A DNA stretch of 35,135 nucleotides from Ilumatobacter sp. (GTDB taxonomy: Bacteria; Actinomycetota; Acidimicrobiia; Acidimicrobiales; Ilumatobacteraceae). The notes below the pieces were generated by a model. The model searched no databases and was not told the DNA's origin. It saw only the letters and a program-made list of their open reading frames with translations. Positions 12,431-22,059 of the stretch are shown here, piece after piece (position 1 is the first letter of the stretch; each line of letters starts with the position of its first letter). The translations under genes and the position numbers were made by a program. The stretch spans positions 1-35,135 of the forward strand of contig NZ_JASJCS010000063.1 in NCBI RefSeq assembly GCF_030065885.1. The letters are read 5' to 3'.

Positions 12431-12631
12431 TCAGTCGTTGCCGCCGGCAGCCGCGGTGTCGACCTCGGTGATCTCGACGTCGGTGATCTCGACGTCGGAC
12501 GGTGCCGAACGGGGCGGAACGGTGAGCCCGCTCGGCTGCTGCTCGTTCGCCTGGCGCTGCTCGGAGGCGCGTCGAGCGCCGATGAGGTAGGCGGCACACT
12601 CGCTGTGTCGGACCCTGGTGGCTGCTCGCAT
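12431..12631 (-). CDS. Possible small protein of unknown function
   Basis: 66-codon reading frame with an ATG start. The second half uses this genome's preferred G/C-ending codons and contains a tandem 15-bp repeat giving DVEITDVEITEVD, an acidic, low-complexity tail. The first half is arginine-rich. No ribosome-binding site, promoter box or known domain is seen. The frame stays open upstream of the ATG until about 12690 without an alternative ATG or GTG. It could be the 3' remnant of a larger broken gene. Confidence 0.3.
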   Translation of the reverse strand: MRAATRVRHSECAAYLIGARRASEQRQANEQQPSGLTVPPRSAPSDVEITDVEITEVDTAAAGGND

Positions 12632-12995
12632 GGTCGGGACCGTCCGCCTCGGCGACTCTCGGTCAAGGTGGTCTGGCGGAATCCAGGCGGGGCCGATGGA
12701 CCGGACGCCCCGCTACCGTCCCGGACGACGGAACGAGTCGGCGCGCTGCGCACCTCGGGATCGCCGCGGTCAGCGGCGCTGCCCCGGGTCGGCACGCTGC
12801 GCAGCCGGCGCTCCGTCGACCCGGCCGCTCGCTCGGCGACCGCCGACCGCCTGCGGTTCGGCGGCCGTGGGACGACGACGGGTCTCGATCGGCGCCAGCG
12901 CCGTCCTCGAGTGTCGATCGGTCGCCCGTCCCGGGCAGCTGTCGACCGACGTCTGGGGTCGGTCGGGAAGAAGGCGTCCCGGAGCGCGGCGGTCA
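12632..12995 (-). other. Stretch without a convincing gene; degenerate coding remnant likely
   Basis: No frame on either strand keeps consistent codon bias across this stretch. On the minus strand, an ATG at 12994-12996 overlapping the upstream stop begins well (MTAALRDAFFPTDP, nearly all codons ending in G or C). It then degrades into arginine-rich, low-complexity sequence, with better-looking codons continuing in another frame. Two near copies of GTCGGCRCGCTGCGCA lie about 50 bp apart near 12738 and 12788. It may be decayed coding DNA or a poorly sequenced region. Confidence 0.4.
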
Positions 12996-13452
12996 TCACC
13001 GGCGGACGAACTCGAGGCGGGTTCTGCCGCGCTCGAAGACCAGCCGCCCGCCGTCCAGCCGTCCACCGGTCTCGATCGCATCAGCGACGTCGTGTTGGAG
13101 ATCGCCGAAGTCGACGCCGCCGACCGAGCAGTCCTCCTGGAACTCGGTGGTGTCGTCGATGAGGACGACGAACTCGAGGCAGGCGAGCCGGACCGTGGCG
13201 CGACGGTCGTCGATCTCCAGTCGGGCGGGAGCGTCGTGCTCGACGTCGTCGACGATCACGACCTCGGCGGTCCACCCGCCGTCCGAACCGGCCGGGAATC
13301 GCGTGTCGACGAGACGCTCCCGCACCCCGATCCACACGATCGCGATCAGGAAAGACGACGAGCGGCACCGCCGGGAGGAAGCGCCGCCAGGCGGGTGGCG
13401 ACGCGAGGGGCTCGTCCGACTTGCGACCGCCGAGCGTCGGGTCTGCGGGCAC
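12996..13452 (-). pseudogene. Membrane-anchored protein, possibly META-like, broken by a frameshift
   Basis: Two overlapping minus-strand frames make one sensible protein if one base is removed near 13349-13353. The first frame starts at GTG 13452 and gives a short cytoplasmic tail, then RRFLPAVPLVVF. The second continues LIAIVWIGVRERLVDTRFPAG, completing one transmembrane helix, then an extracellular domain of about 110 residues ending RLVFERGRTRLEFVRR. That ending and the small beta-rich outline loosely recall META/HslJ domains; I am not sure of this. A GATACT -10 box 6 bases before GTG 13452 supports the start. The joined product would be about 151 residues. The break could be a sequencing error, a true mutation or recoding. 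Confidence 0.6.
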
Positions 13453-13458
13453 CTCGTC

Positions 13459-13464
13459 AGTATC
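13459..13464 (-). promoter_or_regulatory. -10 box (GATACT) of the frameshifted membrane protein gene
   Basis: GATACT on the minus strand (five of six bases match TATACT), 6 bases before GTG 13452. Confidence 0.4.
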
Positions 13465-13601
13465 ACACCGCCCGATGCACCCCGCGCCTCACGTCTCCAG
13501 TCCGGTCGTCACCGAGACTGTCGTCCCGGCCGTCCGGCCTGGGATCAGGCGACCGATCCCGTGCGCGACCGGCGCAGCGTGCAGCTGGCTCGGCCGCCTG
13601 C

Positions 13602-13606
13602 GAGGA
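13602..13606 (+). promoter_or_regulatory. Shine-Dalgarno (GAGGA) of the methyltransferase gene
   Basis: GAGGA 7 bases before GTG 13614; it selects this start within a much longer open frame. Confidence 0.6.
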
Positions 13607-13613
13607 TGGCGGT

Positions 13614-14360
13614 GTGCCCGGCACGTCGGTCTCCTATGCCCGCATCGCCGACCGGTACGAACACGCCCGGGGCGGCACCGAGCGGGCCGATGCGCTGGTC
13701 GAGGCGATCGGGCCGTGGCTGACTGACGGGCTGATCTGCGACGTCGGCGCCGGCACGGGCGTCGTGACCGAGCGGTTGCGCACGGCAGGTCGGGACGTGC
13801 TTGCCGTCGACCTCTCGATCGAGATGCTGCGGCGGGCGGCCGAGCGCCTGCCGGGCAGGGTCGCCGTGGCAGACGGCTCGCACCTGCCGCTGGCGGACGG
13901 GACTGTGGACATGATCACGTTCGTCTGGGTGCTGCACCACGTCGCAGACCTCGACGCCACGCTCCGTGAAGCCCGGCGAGTGTTGCGGCGGGGCGGGCGG
14001 ATCGTGACCGTGAGTGGGTTGTCGATCCCGACCGCCGACGAGATGTCACCGGTCTTCGAACGGCTCAACGATCGACTACGACCCGATCGGGTGCGGCAGT
14101 CGCTGGCCGTCGCTGAGGTTGCAGGGTCGGTCGGCTTCACGATCGCGCACGAGGGCACCGCTCGAACCTCGGCCGAGACGTCGCCCAACGCGCTGGCCGA
14201 CGCGATCGAGGAGCGGATGTTCTCCCACCTGTGGGACCTCGACGAAGAGCAGTGGCGCACGATCGTCGCGCCGGCGGTCGATGAGCTGCGATCGCTCCCC
14301 GAGCCGGACCGGGCGCGACATCGTGTCTTCGACCATCCGCTCCTCGTCCTCGACCGCTGA
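13614..14360 (+). CDS. Class I SAM-dependent methyltransferase
   Basis: 248-residue Methyltransf_11-type protein; the substrate is unknown. Motif I is LICDVGAGTGVVTERLR at about residues 40-56, with the acidic ribose-binding residue in LAVDLSIEMLRRA. Motif II/III regions are VAVADGSHLPLADGTVDMIT and VWVLHHVADLDATLREARR, followed by VLRRGGRIVTV, all typical of UbiE/BioC-like enzymes. GTG 13614 is preceded by GAGGA at 13602-13606 with 7 bases between. It is the first plus-strand gene and is divergent from the frameshifted gene (161 bp apart). It is convergent with selD, with a perfect palindrome in the gap. Confidence 0.9.
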   Translation: MPGTSVSYARIADRYEHARGGTERADALVEAIGPWLTDGLICDVGAGTGVVTERLRTAGRDVLAVDLSIEMLRRAAERLPGRVAVADGSHLPLADGTVDMITFVWVLHHVADLDATLREARRVLRRGGRIVTVSGLSIPTADEMSPVFERLNDRLRPDRVRQSLAVAEVAGSVGFTIAHEGTARTSAETSPNALADAIEERMFSHLWDLDEEQWRTIVAPAVDELRSLPEPDRARHRVFDHPLLVLDR

Positions 14361-14538: not shown

Positions 14539-15576
14539 TCAGCGCAGGGTGAAGCGCGGTTCGCCGGCTGCGGTCGATCCGATGACCGCAGCGGTGTGGC
14601 CAGTAGCTTCGAGCTCGGCGAGCACGCCGGACGACTCGCCAGGATCGACGCCGAACACCAGCCCGCCCGATGTCTGGGCATCGGCGACGAGGATCTGGTG
14701 CACCTCGTCGTGCGATCCGGCGTCGAGGATCGACCGCCCCCATCCGAGGTTGCGGCGACTGCCGCCGGGTACGACACCTGCGGCGGCGAGCTCGGCGGCG
14801 CCGGGCAGGAACGGCACGGCGTCGAAGTCGACCGCCACGGCGACCCCCGATTCGACCGCCATCCGGCCGAGGTGGCCGAGCAATCCGAACCCGGTCACGT
14901 CGGTGCACCCGGTGGCGCCGGCGGCCACTGCGAGGCGGGCGGCGACGTCGTTGAGCCGGGTCATCGACTCGACGGCTGCGTCGGCGACCTCGGACGACGC
15001 CTCACCGGCCTTGATCGCCGTCGTGATGACGCCGACGCCGAGCGGCTTGGTGAGGACGAGGTCCTGCCCCGGCTCCAGGCCGCGGTTCGTGAGGACGCGA
15101 TCGGGATGCACCACGCCGGTGACCGCCATCCCGTACTTGGGTTCGGGATCGTCGATGGTGTGGCCGCCCGCGACGACGAACCCGGCCGTGTTCGCGATGT
15201 CCTGGCCGCCGCCGAGCACCTCGTCGAGCAGCTCGATCGGCAACGCCTCGGCGTTCCAGCCGACGAGGTTGAGCGCGAACAGCGGCTGACCACCCATCGC
15301 GTACACGTCGGACACGCTGTTCGCAGCTGCGATGCGGCCCCACGAGCGCGCGTCGTCGACCACCGGCGTGATGAAGTCGGCGGTCGAGATGAGGGCGCGC
15401 TCGTCGTCGAGCCGCCACACGGCGGCGTCGTCGCCGGACTCGGGGCCGACGAGCAGTTCCTCGGGGTGTTCGGAGTGGAGATGGCGCACGACCTGCGCCA
15501 GTTCGCCGGGGGCGAGCTTGCAGGCTCAACCGGCACCGTGGCTGAACTGCGTGAGCCGTGTCACGGGTTCGCTCAT
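14539..15576 (-). CDS. selD: Selenide, water dikinase, itself a selenoprotein (in-frame UGA = Sec17)
   Basis: Makes selenophosphate from selenide and ATP, the selenium donor for selenocysteine and selenouridine. 345 residues if UGA at 15526-15528 is read as selenocysteine. The start is MSEPVTRLTQFSHGAG, then UGA, then ACKLAPGEL. This matches the family active site HGAG(C/U)xCK, with Sec17 and Lys20 at the positions of Cys17 and Lys20 in the E. coli enzyme. The remainder is intact: ESGDDAAVW, TADFITPVVDD, NSVSDVYAMGGQPLFALN, VVAGGHTIDDPEPKYGMAVTG and DAQTSGGLVFGV. ATG 15574-15576 has AAGGGG upstream with suitable spacing. Calling the gene without recoding loses 29 residues and the catalytic site. 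No selA, selB or selC lies in the window. Confidence 0.96.
15491..15525 (-). promoter_or_regulatory. Candidate bacterial SECIS hairpin just after the selD UGA
   Basis: The 35 bases after the UGA fold on the mRNA as an outer stem GCCUGC/GCAGGU (6 bp including one G-U), an asymmetric internal loop AAGC/ACUGG(C), an inner stem UCGCC/GGCGA and an apical CCC. The apex lies 16-18 bases after the UGA, within the usual range for SelB recognition. The expected apical G is not in this minimal loop unless the top pairs open. Confidence 0.55.
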
Positions 15577-15601
15577 GTCGTCCACCCCCTTCCCGCACTC
15601 G

Positions 15602-17134
15602 TCATGGAAGGCCGAGACTAACGGCCGGATCGGTGGCCTGGTCGGCCAGCACCGTCCCGACCAGCATCGTCGGGCCCGACGGGCGATCCGCGATGACGTA
15701 GATCGTGTCCCGTCGCCCCACCGCCGTGAGGCGCACGTCCCACCGAGATGCGTCGAGGCCGAGCAGGTCGTCCAGTTCGACCGTCTCCCATGCATCGAAG
15801 TCCCGACTCACCCGCAGCAGCGGGCTGCTACGCGGGTCGGCGGCGACCCACCCGAAGTCGGCCCGGGATGCGCTGACGACCCCCGGGACGTTCGGCATCT
15901 CGACGAACCGCTCACCGTCTGCGGTCGAGAACGCAGCGTGCCGGCCGCCGGTGTGAATGGTCAGTCGAGCGTCGGGATACGAGCCGTGCAGACCCACCGG
16001 AGTGCCCGCCGTTCGCGCCGCCGGCAGCTCGAGCTCGCTCCACCTGCGACCGTCGGCCGACCGCCACAGCCTCACGTCGTCGTCCGCGTCGGCCACCCGC
16101 GCCAGCACGCCTCCGCCGAAGCGGACCAACTCGACGCGATCGTCGAGCTGCCACGGCCGGGCGACTGGTGCGAAGTCCTGACCGTTCCAGCCCAACCAGA
16201 CGAGATCGACGCTGCCGGCAGCCGCCTCCAACGGGCCCCGACCGGGATGTGCGTCGAACGACCAGACGGTCGCACCGTCGGCGTCGACGACGTCGAAACC
16301 GCCGGGTCGCGGTGCGGGCGACAACCTGAACTCCTCGACGCCGAGCCCGCGGTAGTCGCCCTGCGCCGCCCTGATCGCCCGATCGCCATCGGTGAGCCGC
16401 ACCCGATACGAACCGTCATCGACGACGTCGACGAACTCGCGCCACGGCAACTCGACTCGGCGTGATGCGAGCAGGAACAGCTCGTTCCCGAGAACGATGG
16501 GGAACCCGTCGGACGGATCGAGTGCCGGAACGGTCTCGGCCACGAGACCGTCCGGCACCGCCTGTGACGATCCGGCGAGATCGGTCTCCTCCCATCCGGT
16601 CGGCATCTCCACGGCGAGCGTGAGCGATGCCTCACGACCGGCGAGGCGCCAGGCGATGCCACCGACCTCGCGGACAGTCTCCTCGTGTGATCGCCACCGA
16701 CCGTCGGTGCCGAGCTCCCATCGACGTCCGCTGTCGTCACCACCGACCACGTCCCCGTTGGCGTCGAGCGCCACGAACTCGGGCAGCATCCGCTCGACGC
16801 CGTCGACGTGGTCCCAGACGATCGTGCCCACCGTCGACCCGTCGAGTGCGCGGACACCCTCCAGGGTGTTCGCGACCGGCAACTCCGACGAGGCCGTCGC
16901 CGACGGCTCGTCCCCGACCGGCGGTGCATCGTCCTGGCCCCCGAACACCACGACGGCGGCCCCCACCACGACGACCCCCGCGACCACGACGGCCGCGATC
17001 AGCGCGTTCGCGCCGTCCGGGTGCGGCACGTTCTCATCCACGGCGGGCCGCGGGTGCGCCCCCGAGCCGGGCACCACGTCGATCACTCGGTTCGGTTCGA
17101 CGTCCCCCGAATCGTGTCGCCGGCGATCGGCCAT
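15602..17134 (-). CDS. Membrane-anchored protein with Asp-box (BNR-like) repeats
   Basis: 510 residues, function unknown. A cytoplasmic N-terminus (MADRRRHDSGDVEPNRV, residues 1-45 or so) is followed by one transmembrane helix (NALIAAVVVAGVVVVGAAVVVF). A large extracellular part is rich in tryptophan and aspartate. The C-terminal third has repeats resembling sialidase Asp-boxes: LWRSADGRRWSEL, AAFSTADGERFVEM and LLRVSRDFDAWETV, suggesting a beta-propeller. It ends 25 bp before selD begins, so the two may be cotranscribed. ATG 17132-17134 is chosen over longer in-frame starts because the upstream extension is arginine-rich and would cross the divergent promoter region. A weak TTGTCC-N17-CAGACT promoter ends 9 bases before it. 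Confidence 0.75.
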   Translation of the reverse strand: MADRRRHDSGDVEPNRVIDVVPGSGAHPRPAVDENVPHPDGANALIAAVVVAGVVVVGAAVVVFGGQDDAPPVGDEPSATASSELPVANTLEGVRALDGSTVGTIVWDHVDGVERMLPEFVALDANGDVVGGDDSGRRWELGTDGRWRSHEETVREVGGIAWRLAGREASLTLAVEMPTGWEETDLAGSSQAVPDGLVAETVPALDPSDGFPIVLGNELFLLASRRVELPWREFVDVVDDGSYRVRLTDGDRAIRAAQGDYRGLGVEEFRLSPAPRPGGFDVVDADGATVWSFDAHPGRGPLEAAAGSVDLVWLGWNGQDFAPVARPWQLDDRVELVRFGGGVLARVADADDDVRLWRSADGRRWSELELPAARTAGTPVGLHGSYPDARLTIHTGGRHAAFSTADGERFVEMPNVPGVVSASRADFGWVAADPRSSPLLRVSRDFDAWETVELDDLLGLDASRWDVRLTAVGRRDTIYVIADRPSGPTMLVGTVLADQATDPAVSLGLP

Positions 17135-17196
17135 GGACGGCCCAGTCTGCTTCGCCGCGCGACCCGGGACAAGGCGGCGGCTACGCCGGCCGGCGA

Positions 17197-17202
17197 TACC
17201 CT
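17197..17202 (+). promoter_or_regulatory. -10 box (TACCCT) of the cysteine-cluster protein gene
   Basis: TACCCT 8 bases before GTG 17211, in the 76-bp divergent gap. Confidence 0.4.
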
Positions 17203-17210
17203 GCCGCCCC

Positions 17211-17960
17211 GTGACGGCAGCGCCACCCGACGACGTGCACGAGTGGATCTCGTTCGAGGACGCCACCGAGCAGCGAACCTGGGTCTTCGACGCGACCTAT
17301 CTCCGCTCGTCCCACCGCTGCATCTACGGCGAGGGATGTCAGGGCGTCCTCGACGCGCCGGCCGAGGAGATGGCCCAGGGCTGCTGCAGCTACGGCGCAC
17401 ACTTCGTCGACGACGACGACGTGCAGACGGTCGTCAGCGCGTTCGTGCGGGTCGAACCACGTCACATGCAGTTCCACGCCAAGGCGGTGAAGGGCGGCTT
17501 CCTGCGGCCCGGCGAACCCGACGGCGACGGCAACCCGACCACGGTCAGCCGGCTCGTCGACGATGCGTGCATCTTCCTCAACCGGCCGGGCTTCGAGGGG
17601 GGTACGGGCTGTGCGCTCCACATCGCCGCGCTCGACGCCGGCGAGCGGCCGCTCGACTGGAAGCCGAACGTCTGCTGGCAGGTGCCGATCAGGCTCGAGC
17701 ACTCGAGCGACGACAACGGCCACGTGACGTCGCGCCTGCGGGAGTGGAAGCGCCGGGACTGGGGCGACGGCGGCGACGAGTTCCACTGGTGGTGCACCGA
17801 GGCCGCGGAGGCGTTCGTCGGCGACGAGCCGGTCTACGTCGCGTCGCGTGACGAGATCGTCGAGCTCGTCGGCCAGGAGGTGTACGACCTCATGGTCGAG
17901 CAGCTGGAGCGCCCCGGCTGGGTGCCGTTGCCGCACCCCACGGTGCGCCGGGCCTCGTAG
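17211..17960 (+). CDS. Conserved cysteine-cluster protein, YkgJ-like metal-binding pattern
   Basis: 249 residues, no firm family assignment. Cysteines sit at 37, 43, 58 and 59 (C-x5-C-x14-CC). Further ones are in DDACIFLNRPGFEGGTGCAL, in KPNVCWQVPI and in FHWWCTEA. The CC pair followed by C-x-F-L and G-C-x-L-H resembles the zinc/iron-chelating YkgJ family, with wider spacing. There is no signal peptide or membrane helix, so it is probably a cytosolic metal- or cluster-binding protein. GTG 17211 is chosen because of the TACCCT box 8 bases upstream. It stands alone, divergent from the Asp-box protein and convergent with the small charged protein. Confidence 0.8.
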   Translation: MTAAPPDDVHEWISFEDATEQRTWVFDATYLRSSHRCIYGEGCQGVLDAPAEEMAQGCCSYGAHFVDDDDVQTVVSAFVRVEPRHMQFHAKAVKGGFLRPGEPDGDGNPTTVSRLVDDACIFLNRPGFEGGTGCALHIAALDAGERPLDWKPNVCWQVPIRLEHSSDDNGHVTSRLREWKRRDWGDGGDEFHWWCTEAAEAFVGDEPVYVASRDEIVELVGQEVYDLMVEQLERPGWVPLPHPTVRRAS

Positions 17961-20981: not shown

Positions 20982-21551
20982 TCAGCGCTCGCGCTCGTCG
21001 AGCAGGTCGCCGGGCGTGTTGACGTTGCGGACGCCTGCGACATCGACGTCGACCTCGATCACCGCCAGCTCGTCGAGAGCGGCGCCGTAGCTGCGGGTGC
21101 CGCGTGCGATCAGATCGGCGAGCGGCGCTGCGGCCCTGGCCGCCCAGTACGACAGCAGATGGCGTCGCCCGGCTGCCGTTGCGACGATGACATCGGCGGC
21201 GTCGTCGCCGGCACCGGCGCGGTCGATCAGCGCAGTGACGGTGGCAGCGTCGAGATCGGCGAGGTCGCAGGCGGCGACGACGATGTCGCCGCGGACGCGA
21301 TCGATCGCCGCGTGGATCGCCGGGAGCGGGCCTTCGCCCGGCATCGAGTCGGGCGAGACCTCCAGCCCGAAGGAGGCCAGCGCCGCAGCGTCACCGCCCT
21401 GGCAGAACACCGGTTGGCAGCCGGCCTCCCACAGCGCGTCCGCGACGCGCACTGCCATCGGTCGACCATCGACGGGCAGCGTCGCCTTGTCGCTCCCCAT
21501 GCGGGCGCTGGCGCCTCCCGCCAGCACCACACCGGCCGGGTGACTCGTCAT
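20982..21551 (-). CDS. mobA: Molybdenum cofactor guanylyltransferase MobA-like protein
   Basis: Nucleotidyltransferase that attaches GMP to molybdopterin, giving the MGD cofactor of DMSO-reductase-family enzymes. 189 residues. The signature GVVLAGGASARMGSDKATLPVDG matches L-A-G-G-x-S-x-R-M-G-x-D-K. VVAACDLADLDAATV carries the metal-binding aspartate (the family usually has P-C-D-x-P). The C-terminus ends VNTPGDLLDERE, the usual N-T-P-x-D motif. ATG 21549-21551 overlaps by ATGA the stop of a 20-codon micro-frame coming from DUF3151. A related CTP-using enzyme (MocA) is the alternative assignment. Confidence 0.87.
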   Translation of the reverse strand: MTSHPAGVVLAGGASARMGSDKATLPVDGRPMAVRVADALWEAGCQPVFCQGGDAAALASFGLEVSPDSMPGEGPLPAIHAAIDRVRGDIVVAACDLADLDAATVTALIDRAGAGDDAADVIVATAAGRRHLLSYWAARAAAPLADLIARGTRSYGAALDELAVIEVDVDVAGVRNVNTPGDLLDERER

Positions 21552-21610
21552 CGGGCGGGGCCCGGGTTCAGGGCGCGGTCGACCGCGACGCTCGCGGCAG
21601 CGGCCGTCAC
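21548..21610 (-). CDS. Possible 20-codon coupling micro-ORF between DUF3151 gene and mobA
   Basis: GTG 21608-21610 overlaps the DUF3151 stop (GTGA). Twenty codons later the stop overlaps the mobA ATG (ATGA). The peptide MTAAAASVAVDRALNPGPAR uses preferred codons. It would let ribosomes pass from DUF3151 to mobA without a ribosome-binding site. It may be translated only for coupling, or may be chance. Confidence 0.35.
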   Translation of the reverse strand: MTAAAASVAVDRALNPGPAR

Positions 21611-22059
21611 GCCGGCGGGATCGAGACGACCTCGTCGTCGGGCACGCCGCTCGGGTCGAGCTGGAGCAGGAAGTGGCAGGTGCGCTCGGCCTCGTCGGTC
21701 TCGCCGATCGCGTCTGCCATACGGTGCAGGCCGAGGAGACAGTGCAGGAAGCCGACGTTGCCGTCGTGCGCCCACCGCACGTAGCCCGAACCACGCCAAC
21801 CACACGCACGAAGGGCATCGAGCCCTCGGTGGTAACCCACCCGGTACGCGGCGTACCGACCGATGACATCGTGGGTGAGGTCACCCAGCGCCGCCCAGCT
21901 CTCGAGGGAGCGCGGGTTGTGCGACACCAGTTCGGCCACTGCCGCACGGGGATCATCGGCCGCCCTGGCGTGCTCGAGCGCCGTTCGCATGGCGGGGTCG
22001 ATGTCCGGGAGCACCGTCACGGGGATCCCGTCCGACATCTGAATCGTTTGGTCGGTCAT
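21607..22059 (-). CDS. DUF3151 family protein
   Basis: 150-residue actinobacterial protein of unknown function. Family hallmarks are LVSHNPRSLESWAALGDL, YRVGYHRGLDALRACGWRG, VRWAHDGNVGFLHCLLGLHRMA and IGETDEAERTCHFLLQLDP. It looks all-helical and cytosolic. ATG 22057-22059 lies 7 bases after a TATCGT -10 box. A second in-frame ATG seven codons later is possible but has no such support. Upstream of mobA and perhaps cotranscribed with it. Confidence 0.9.
   Translation of the reverse strand: MTDQTIQMSDGIPVTVLPDIDPAMRTALEHARAADDPRAAVAELVSHNPRSLESWAALGDLTHDVIGRYAAYRVGYHRGLDALRACGWRGSGYVRWAHDGNVGFLHCLLGLHRMADAIGETDEAERTCHFLLQLDPSGVPDDEVVSIPPA

Follow-up and report, generated by a model that had tools for sequence, protein, structure and literature searches.

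The roles of SelD, SelA and SelB belong to established biology, and bacteria differ in whether SelD is itself a selenoprotein. In PMC4561486, selenocysteine (Sec) is encoded by 19% of the SelD genes found in reference prokaryotes, at one invariant position, and the bacterial SECIS of these Sec-containing genes was obtained with RNAz. PMC1794560 counted 38 SelD selenoproteins in 2006; among the organisms for which it lists SelD are Symbiobacterium thermophilum and Rubrobacter xylanophilus, which it classes with the Actinobacteria.

Here, we analyzed a stretch of 35,135 nucleotides from Ilumatobacter sp. (the window), which carries a selD coding sequence on its minus strand (15576..14539; ATG at 15576-15574, TGA stop at 14541-14539). 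Its 345-aa product, with Sec at residue 17, is predicted with very little doubt to be a SelD (selenide, water dikinase) that is itself a selenoprotein, its UGA17 being read as Sec. The translated frame reads MSEPVTRLTQFSHGAG-UGA-ACKLAPGEL..., and its sole internal stop is the TGA of codon 17 (15528-15526, minus strand), in the context HGAG-U-ACK. A purine-rich stretch, GGAAGGGGG, upstream of the ATG at 15576 (15585..15593, minus strand) is a probable ribosome binding site. The preliminary description, made from the letters alone, had placed this UGA at the position where SelD proteins carry Cys or Sec, with SelD frame on both sides, and the profile searches bear this out. The read-through product matched TIGR00476 with an E-value of 8.7e-115 (383.2 bits, cut-off 125), residues 7-312 covering positions 1-308 of the 311 in the profile, and NF002098 over residues 3-336 (369.1 bits, cut-off 299); Pfam AIRS and AIRS_C domains were also found. 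PDB chain 3u0o_A, which we take to be Escherichia coli SelD, aligned with residues 1-333 (1.4e-80), U17 and K20 standing opposite its Cys17 and Lys20. Both marks of SelD membership, a match to a curated model above its cut-off and a Sec or Cys followed three residues later by Lys, are therefore present; residue 17 and Lys20 are presumably the catalytic residues.

A nonsense pseudogene, or a shorter protein started at a GTG 29 codons in, would also account for the internal TGA. Mechanical ORF calling with table 11 yields exactly such a frame, a 316-aa ORF starting with GTG at 15489 (14539..15489, minus strand), as the preliminary description had foreseen in stating that standard annotation would start 29 codons late and lose the active site. 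Residue 17 and Lys20 lie upstream of that GTG, so this ORF lacks the active-site loop. By eye, relatives conserve the protein sequence encoded ahead of the GTG, and the upstream ATG is preceded by the ribosome-site-like stretch. Moreover, this gene is the only SelD match (E 0.001) in the whole assembly, which has selA, selB and tRNA-Sec. We regard a pseudogene or a late start as very improbable and retain the reading of a full-length Sec-containing SelD.

Three other genes of the window were noted along the way. The nearest neighbor of selD on its upstream side, in the same orientation, is a 554-aa open frame (15602-17266, minus strand), whose stop is 25 bases from the selD start; searches of Pfam and NCBIfam with its product gave nothing at E 0.001. 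Further away, in the product of 20982-21956 (minus strand), a MobA-like NTP transferase domain begins only at residue 141, and the roughly 140 residues before it had no family match at E 0.001. For a methyltransferase-like gene convergent with selD (12618-14360, plus strand), the matches to two selenoprotein methyltransferase models were weak and generic; it was dropped as a selenoprotein gene, no continuation being recognizable by eye beyond its stop.

We examined codon 17 in an order-level set of 198 genomes of Acidimicrobiales, 125 of which had a SelD match. Seventy-five of these were flagged for a TGA inside the gene, 40 were uninterrupted, and one had a TAG; the matches in the remaining nine (G060, G068, G070, G082, G116, G145, G147, G171 and G196) were weak, partial or resembled fusions, and these genomes were left out at codon 17. 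In the 116 selD genes examined, the window's own copy included, codon 17 was TGA in 74 and TGC or TGT in 42; the flagged genomes include G124, whose codon 17 encodes Cys and whose TGA lies in the tail of the gene instead. A locus-level set, which overlaps in part with the order-level one, gave a comparable picture: among the matches listed, TGA occupied codon 17 in at least 70 of 110 loci (window copy included) and TGC or TGT in the other 40. Among the named loci in these matches, at least 40 of 80 had TGA and at least 40 of 80 had Cys, numbers that are no census, since one search pattern held Cys and some loci may duplicate other genomes (identical rows). The titles of the 40 TGA named loci among the matches listed were of Acidimicrobi- or Ilumatobacter-type in 28 cases and of other actinobacteria in seven; the rest were two Anaeromyxobacter, two Gemmatimonadetes and one Bacterium HR12. 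The nearest loci among the named matches listed bore the titles Acidimicrobiales, Ilumatobacteraceae or Ilumatobacter.

The recurrence of TGA at codon 17 across relatives is more than chance. It also bears on the possibility that a TGC or TGT codon for Cys was turned into TGA by a mistake in sequencing or assembly, an idea to which the draft state of the assembly and the Cys codons of the 42 order-level genes lend some color. An error of this kind would have to be shared by 73 other genomes of the order, which carry TGA at codon 17 together with the same hairpin, and by the TGA-bearing named loci; we consider it highly unlikely, and a genuine Sec codon remains the preferred reading. A quick tree built from 114 of the 116 selD genes requires four changes of the Sec/Cys state. 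Thirty-five of the 42 Cys genes represent a distant SelD type with a KW-type loop (CGGCAAKW-like; loci L141-L174 and L220), and the other seven lack this loop. Within the window's own genus, genome G006 has a single SelD match, which is of this distant Cys type (L166), alongside selA and tRNA-Sec.

Downstream of the UGA, we identified a SECIS-type hairpin, UGGCGCA-GGUCG-UGCGCCA (15482..15500, minus strand), which occupies nt 29-47 counted from the T of the TGA. The bacterial SECIS (bSECIS) model, as set out in the relevant section of PMC13188914, calls for a loop of 3-9 nt with a G in its first two positions, a stem of 4-16 bp, a spacing of 16-37 nt and an energy of at most -7.5 kcal/mol. The selD hairpin is within all these limits, with a 5-nt loop (GGUCG) that starts with G, a 7-bp stem, a fold energy of -11.6 kcal/mol and a spacing of 32 nt past the UGA, near the long end of the range. 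As a stability control, we took 400 random codons in 14 other genes of the window: 40 of them were followed by an equally stable hairpin of the model type and 161 passed -7.5 kcal/mol. Fold stability, weak by itself, was therefore dropped as evidence.

Nine pairs were tested: 83% of them were standard across 59 distinct TGA sequences, compared with 49% across 40 Cys sequences; the outermost tested pair, 28-48, is not a pair (1/59). None of 2000 column shuffles did as well, in a control that ignores relatedness. Because the hairpin had been picked with these 59 sequences in view, 43 unseen distinct TGA sequences were counted apart, and they kept a mean of 7.16 of 8 pairs. At the order level, the 72 distinct TGA sequences, of which 29 had already been counted among the 59, were paired in 91% of cells, versus 46% for 42 Cys sequences. 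This contrast is partly phylogenetic, since most of the Cys genes belong to the distant type; the four closest Cys sequences kept 5.00 of 8 pairs. The loop GU was found in 72/72 TGA sequences, in 2/4 close Cys sequences and in 0/38 other Cys sequences. Pair 33-43, formed by the silent third base of an Ala codon and the first base of codon 14, mostly changes in step (GCG/CGC, GCC/GGC, GCU/AGC), being standard in 57 of 59 sequences, two of those 57 having U-G. By parsimony, Watson-Crick-type changes numbered 4, 6 and 6 at pairs 30-46, 31-45 and 33-43, respectively.

A slide control revealed, at offset -18, a second possible hairpin in the KLAPGEL codons (15500..15518, minus strand; nt 11-29 from the UGA). 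Its pairing in TGA sequences was close to that of the hairpin at nt 29-47 (0.78 vs 0.83 in the set of 59; 0.86 vs 0.90 in the 43 unseen sequences), and the two had 38 double-changed cells each, so pairing and covariation alone do not prove a SECIS. At the order level, however, nt 11-29 was paired in 0.86 of the TGA and 0.73 of the Cys cells. Since it is paired in Cys relatives too, the Cys contrast, the loop and the spacing are what single out nt 29-47. The nt 11-29 hairpin, with a loop that is mostly CCN and lies 15 nt past the UGA, is outside the bSECIS model and is probably not the SECIS; it may play a supporting role, and the palindrome may reflect RNA structure or be a by-product of the codons. 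A 65-nt fold around the UGA (z -2.37) contained two hairpins, the second of which is that at 15482-15500; the first holds the UGA in its 5′ arm and was discarded on visual inspection, its bases varying among relatives. A putative SECIS hairpin is present downstream of the UGA and is conserved in the Sec forms of the gene.

The machinery for Sec insertion was sought in the window's own assembly, a draft of 5.04 Mb in 200 contigs that is 90.68% complete with 5.06% contamination. Scans of the window with Rfam (gathering threshold) and for tRNAs gave no match, and selC is on another contig: tRNA-Sec scored 66.6 bits against a gathering threshold of 47, and ARAGORN called it a tRNA-SeC with anticodon tca. 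On contig C12, selA (402.3 bits, cut-off 267.9) adjoins selB (277.4 bits, cut-off 242.25). All three exceed their curated cut-offs. The preliminary description had predicted selA, selB and tRNA-Sec for this genome and had named the absence of selA, selB or selC from a complete genome as a finding that would speak against it; a search of the assembly recovered each of them. As selD, selAB and selC are on three contigs, their assignment to a common organism rests on binning. A genome-wide reassignment of UGA (e.g., to Trp), or its read-through by an ordinary near-cognate tRNA, which an in-frame UGA by itself cannot separate from Sec insertion, is the least probable alternative and has almost nothing in its favor: TGA is the stop of 15 of the 17 window genes checked, selD included, so UGA is a normal stop recoded by context; a tRNA-Sec with a TCA anticodon is present; and relatives have Cys, not Trp, at the UGA position. 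Recoding of UGA17 as Sec is thus the reading we keep. For mnmH/ybbB (TIGR03167), which marks the selenouridine trait, the best score in this assembly was 20.9 bits (cut-off 219.75); as far as an assembly of that completeness tells, Sec may thus be the only use of selenophosphate here.

Across the order, a selA match was found in 72 of the 75 TGA-flagged genomes (one weak, 35.4 bits) versus 47 of the 123 others (Fisher p 5e-18); without G124, it was found in 71 of the 74 genomes with TGA at codon 17. The three TGA genomes without selA (G050, G063 and G125) have a tRNA-Sec above the cut-off and no selB above the cut-off in drafts that are 92, 78 and 90% complete, respectively, and gaps in these draft assemblies are the likely cause of the missing selA and selB. 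The genomes with an uninterrupted SelD had selA in 36 of 40 cases, which indicates that selA accompanies either kind of SelD. With a TGA in SelD, in addition, selA is hardly ever missing.

Other selenoproteins had also been expected in this genome, formate dehydrogenase being given as an example, and candidates were indeed found. One of the six PF00384 places in the genome has an in-frame TGA, in the context DSCNRT-U-HAPS (L128, contig C187), which we take to be the Sec site of formate dehydrogenase. The assignment to FdhA is based on PF00384 (222.1 bits), a partial model match and this motif; the FdhA model score, 368.7 bits, is below the cut-off of 666.25 because only the part downstream of the UGA was searched. 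The corresponding hairpin has a GGUCU loop 18 nt past the UGA and, as cut, an energy of -7.4 kcal/mol, just short of the -7.5 limit. A SelW/Rdx-like gene, the sole match of its kind in the genome (L229, C55:38650-39400; 53.3 bits, cut-off 22.6), has a TGA in its CxxU motif (CVPU). Among 16 AhpC-TSA places, five have in-frame TGA codons and are peroxiredoxin/thioredoxin-like candidates. Four are of the UxxC type, namely HULPC, WUSTC, WUPYC and GUSLC (L224, L225, L226 and L228, on contigs C161, C93, C158 and C61, respectively), the last of which scores below the family cut-off. The fifth, a thioredoxin-like candidate with WUPFU (UxxU; L227, C184:41300-42100), has two in-frame UGAs, a lipoprotein-type start as judged by eye, and a hairpin with a GGUC loop, 26 nt past its first UGA and 17 nt past its second. 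The WUSTC, WUPFU and GUSLC genes have in common a GGUC-loop hairpin 26 nt past the first UGA, and the best model-type hairpins of the HULPC, WUPYC and SelW-like genes carry other loops. With selD, this makes eight candidate selenoprotein genes, a minimum obtained from a search of three further families; organisms with at least six selenoproteins are called selenoprotein-rich in the pertinent passage of PMC1794560.

A mechanism in line with established SelD and SelB biology can be proposed for this locus. SelD would make selenophosphate from selenide and ATP, and SelA would use selenophosphate to make Sec-tRNA-Sec. SelB, bound to the GGUC-loop hairpin past the UGA, would bring Sec-tRNA-Sec, and Sec would be inserted at codon 17, a scheme that in part follows the account of Sec insertion in PMC13188914. 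The terminal UGA, putatively without such a hairpin after it, would end translation. In the product, Sec17 would lie with Lys20 in a flexible active-site loop and serve selenophosphate formation. As selenophosphate feeds SelA, SelD would help to make its own catalytic residue as well as those of the FdhA, SelW-like and peroxiredoxin/thioredoxin-like candidates, and an enzyme dependent in this way on what it makes may tie its own synthesis to the selenium supply through feedback. The direct observations behind this scheme are the gene, its codon, the machinery genes, the hairpin with its Sec-specific conservation and the co-occurrence with selA.

The spread of Sec-SelD in Acidimicrobiales and the eight selenoprotein candidates, one of them UxxU, are the less expected part of these results. 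PMC13188914, PMC5029168 and PMC12013277 contain no word beginning with acidimicrob in their main texts, and among open-access titles and abstracts we found none that joins Ilumatobacter with selenocysteine or Acidimicrobi- with selenoprotein; large surveys may include such genomes unnamed. Tentatively, and with somewhat more doubt than confidence, we suggest that Sec-SelD with its own SECIS may be the prevailing old form in the order, with few losses to Cys or replacements by the distant Cys-SelD, and that it may sustain a large, largely unannotated selenoproteome that includes a UxxU thioredoxin-like lipoprotein. The selD gene offers a carefully checked example of Sec encoded by a stop codon, where standard annotation truncates the protein at its active site; environmental actinobacteria (Acidimicrobiales, going by the titles of related loci) emerge as a group that often uses Sec and whose selenoproteins may carry wrong annotations.

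Sec-SelD has long been published, and the window gene is in all probability a further instance of it, from a lineage in which Sec-SelD seems to have received little description. It shares with the known bacterial Sec-SelD genes the family, the same single Sec site, a putative bacterial SECIS downstream and selABC in the genome, and it differs from them in coming from another lineage (Acidimicrobiales/Ilumatobacteraceae). With Escherichia coli SelD (3u0o), it has in common the HGAG-x-xCK active-site loop within the alignment over residues 1-333; the E. coli protein, however, has Cys17 in place of Sec and therefore needs no SECIS.
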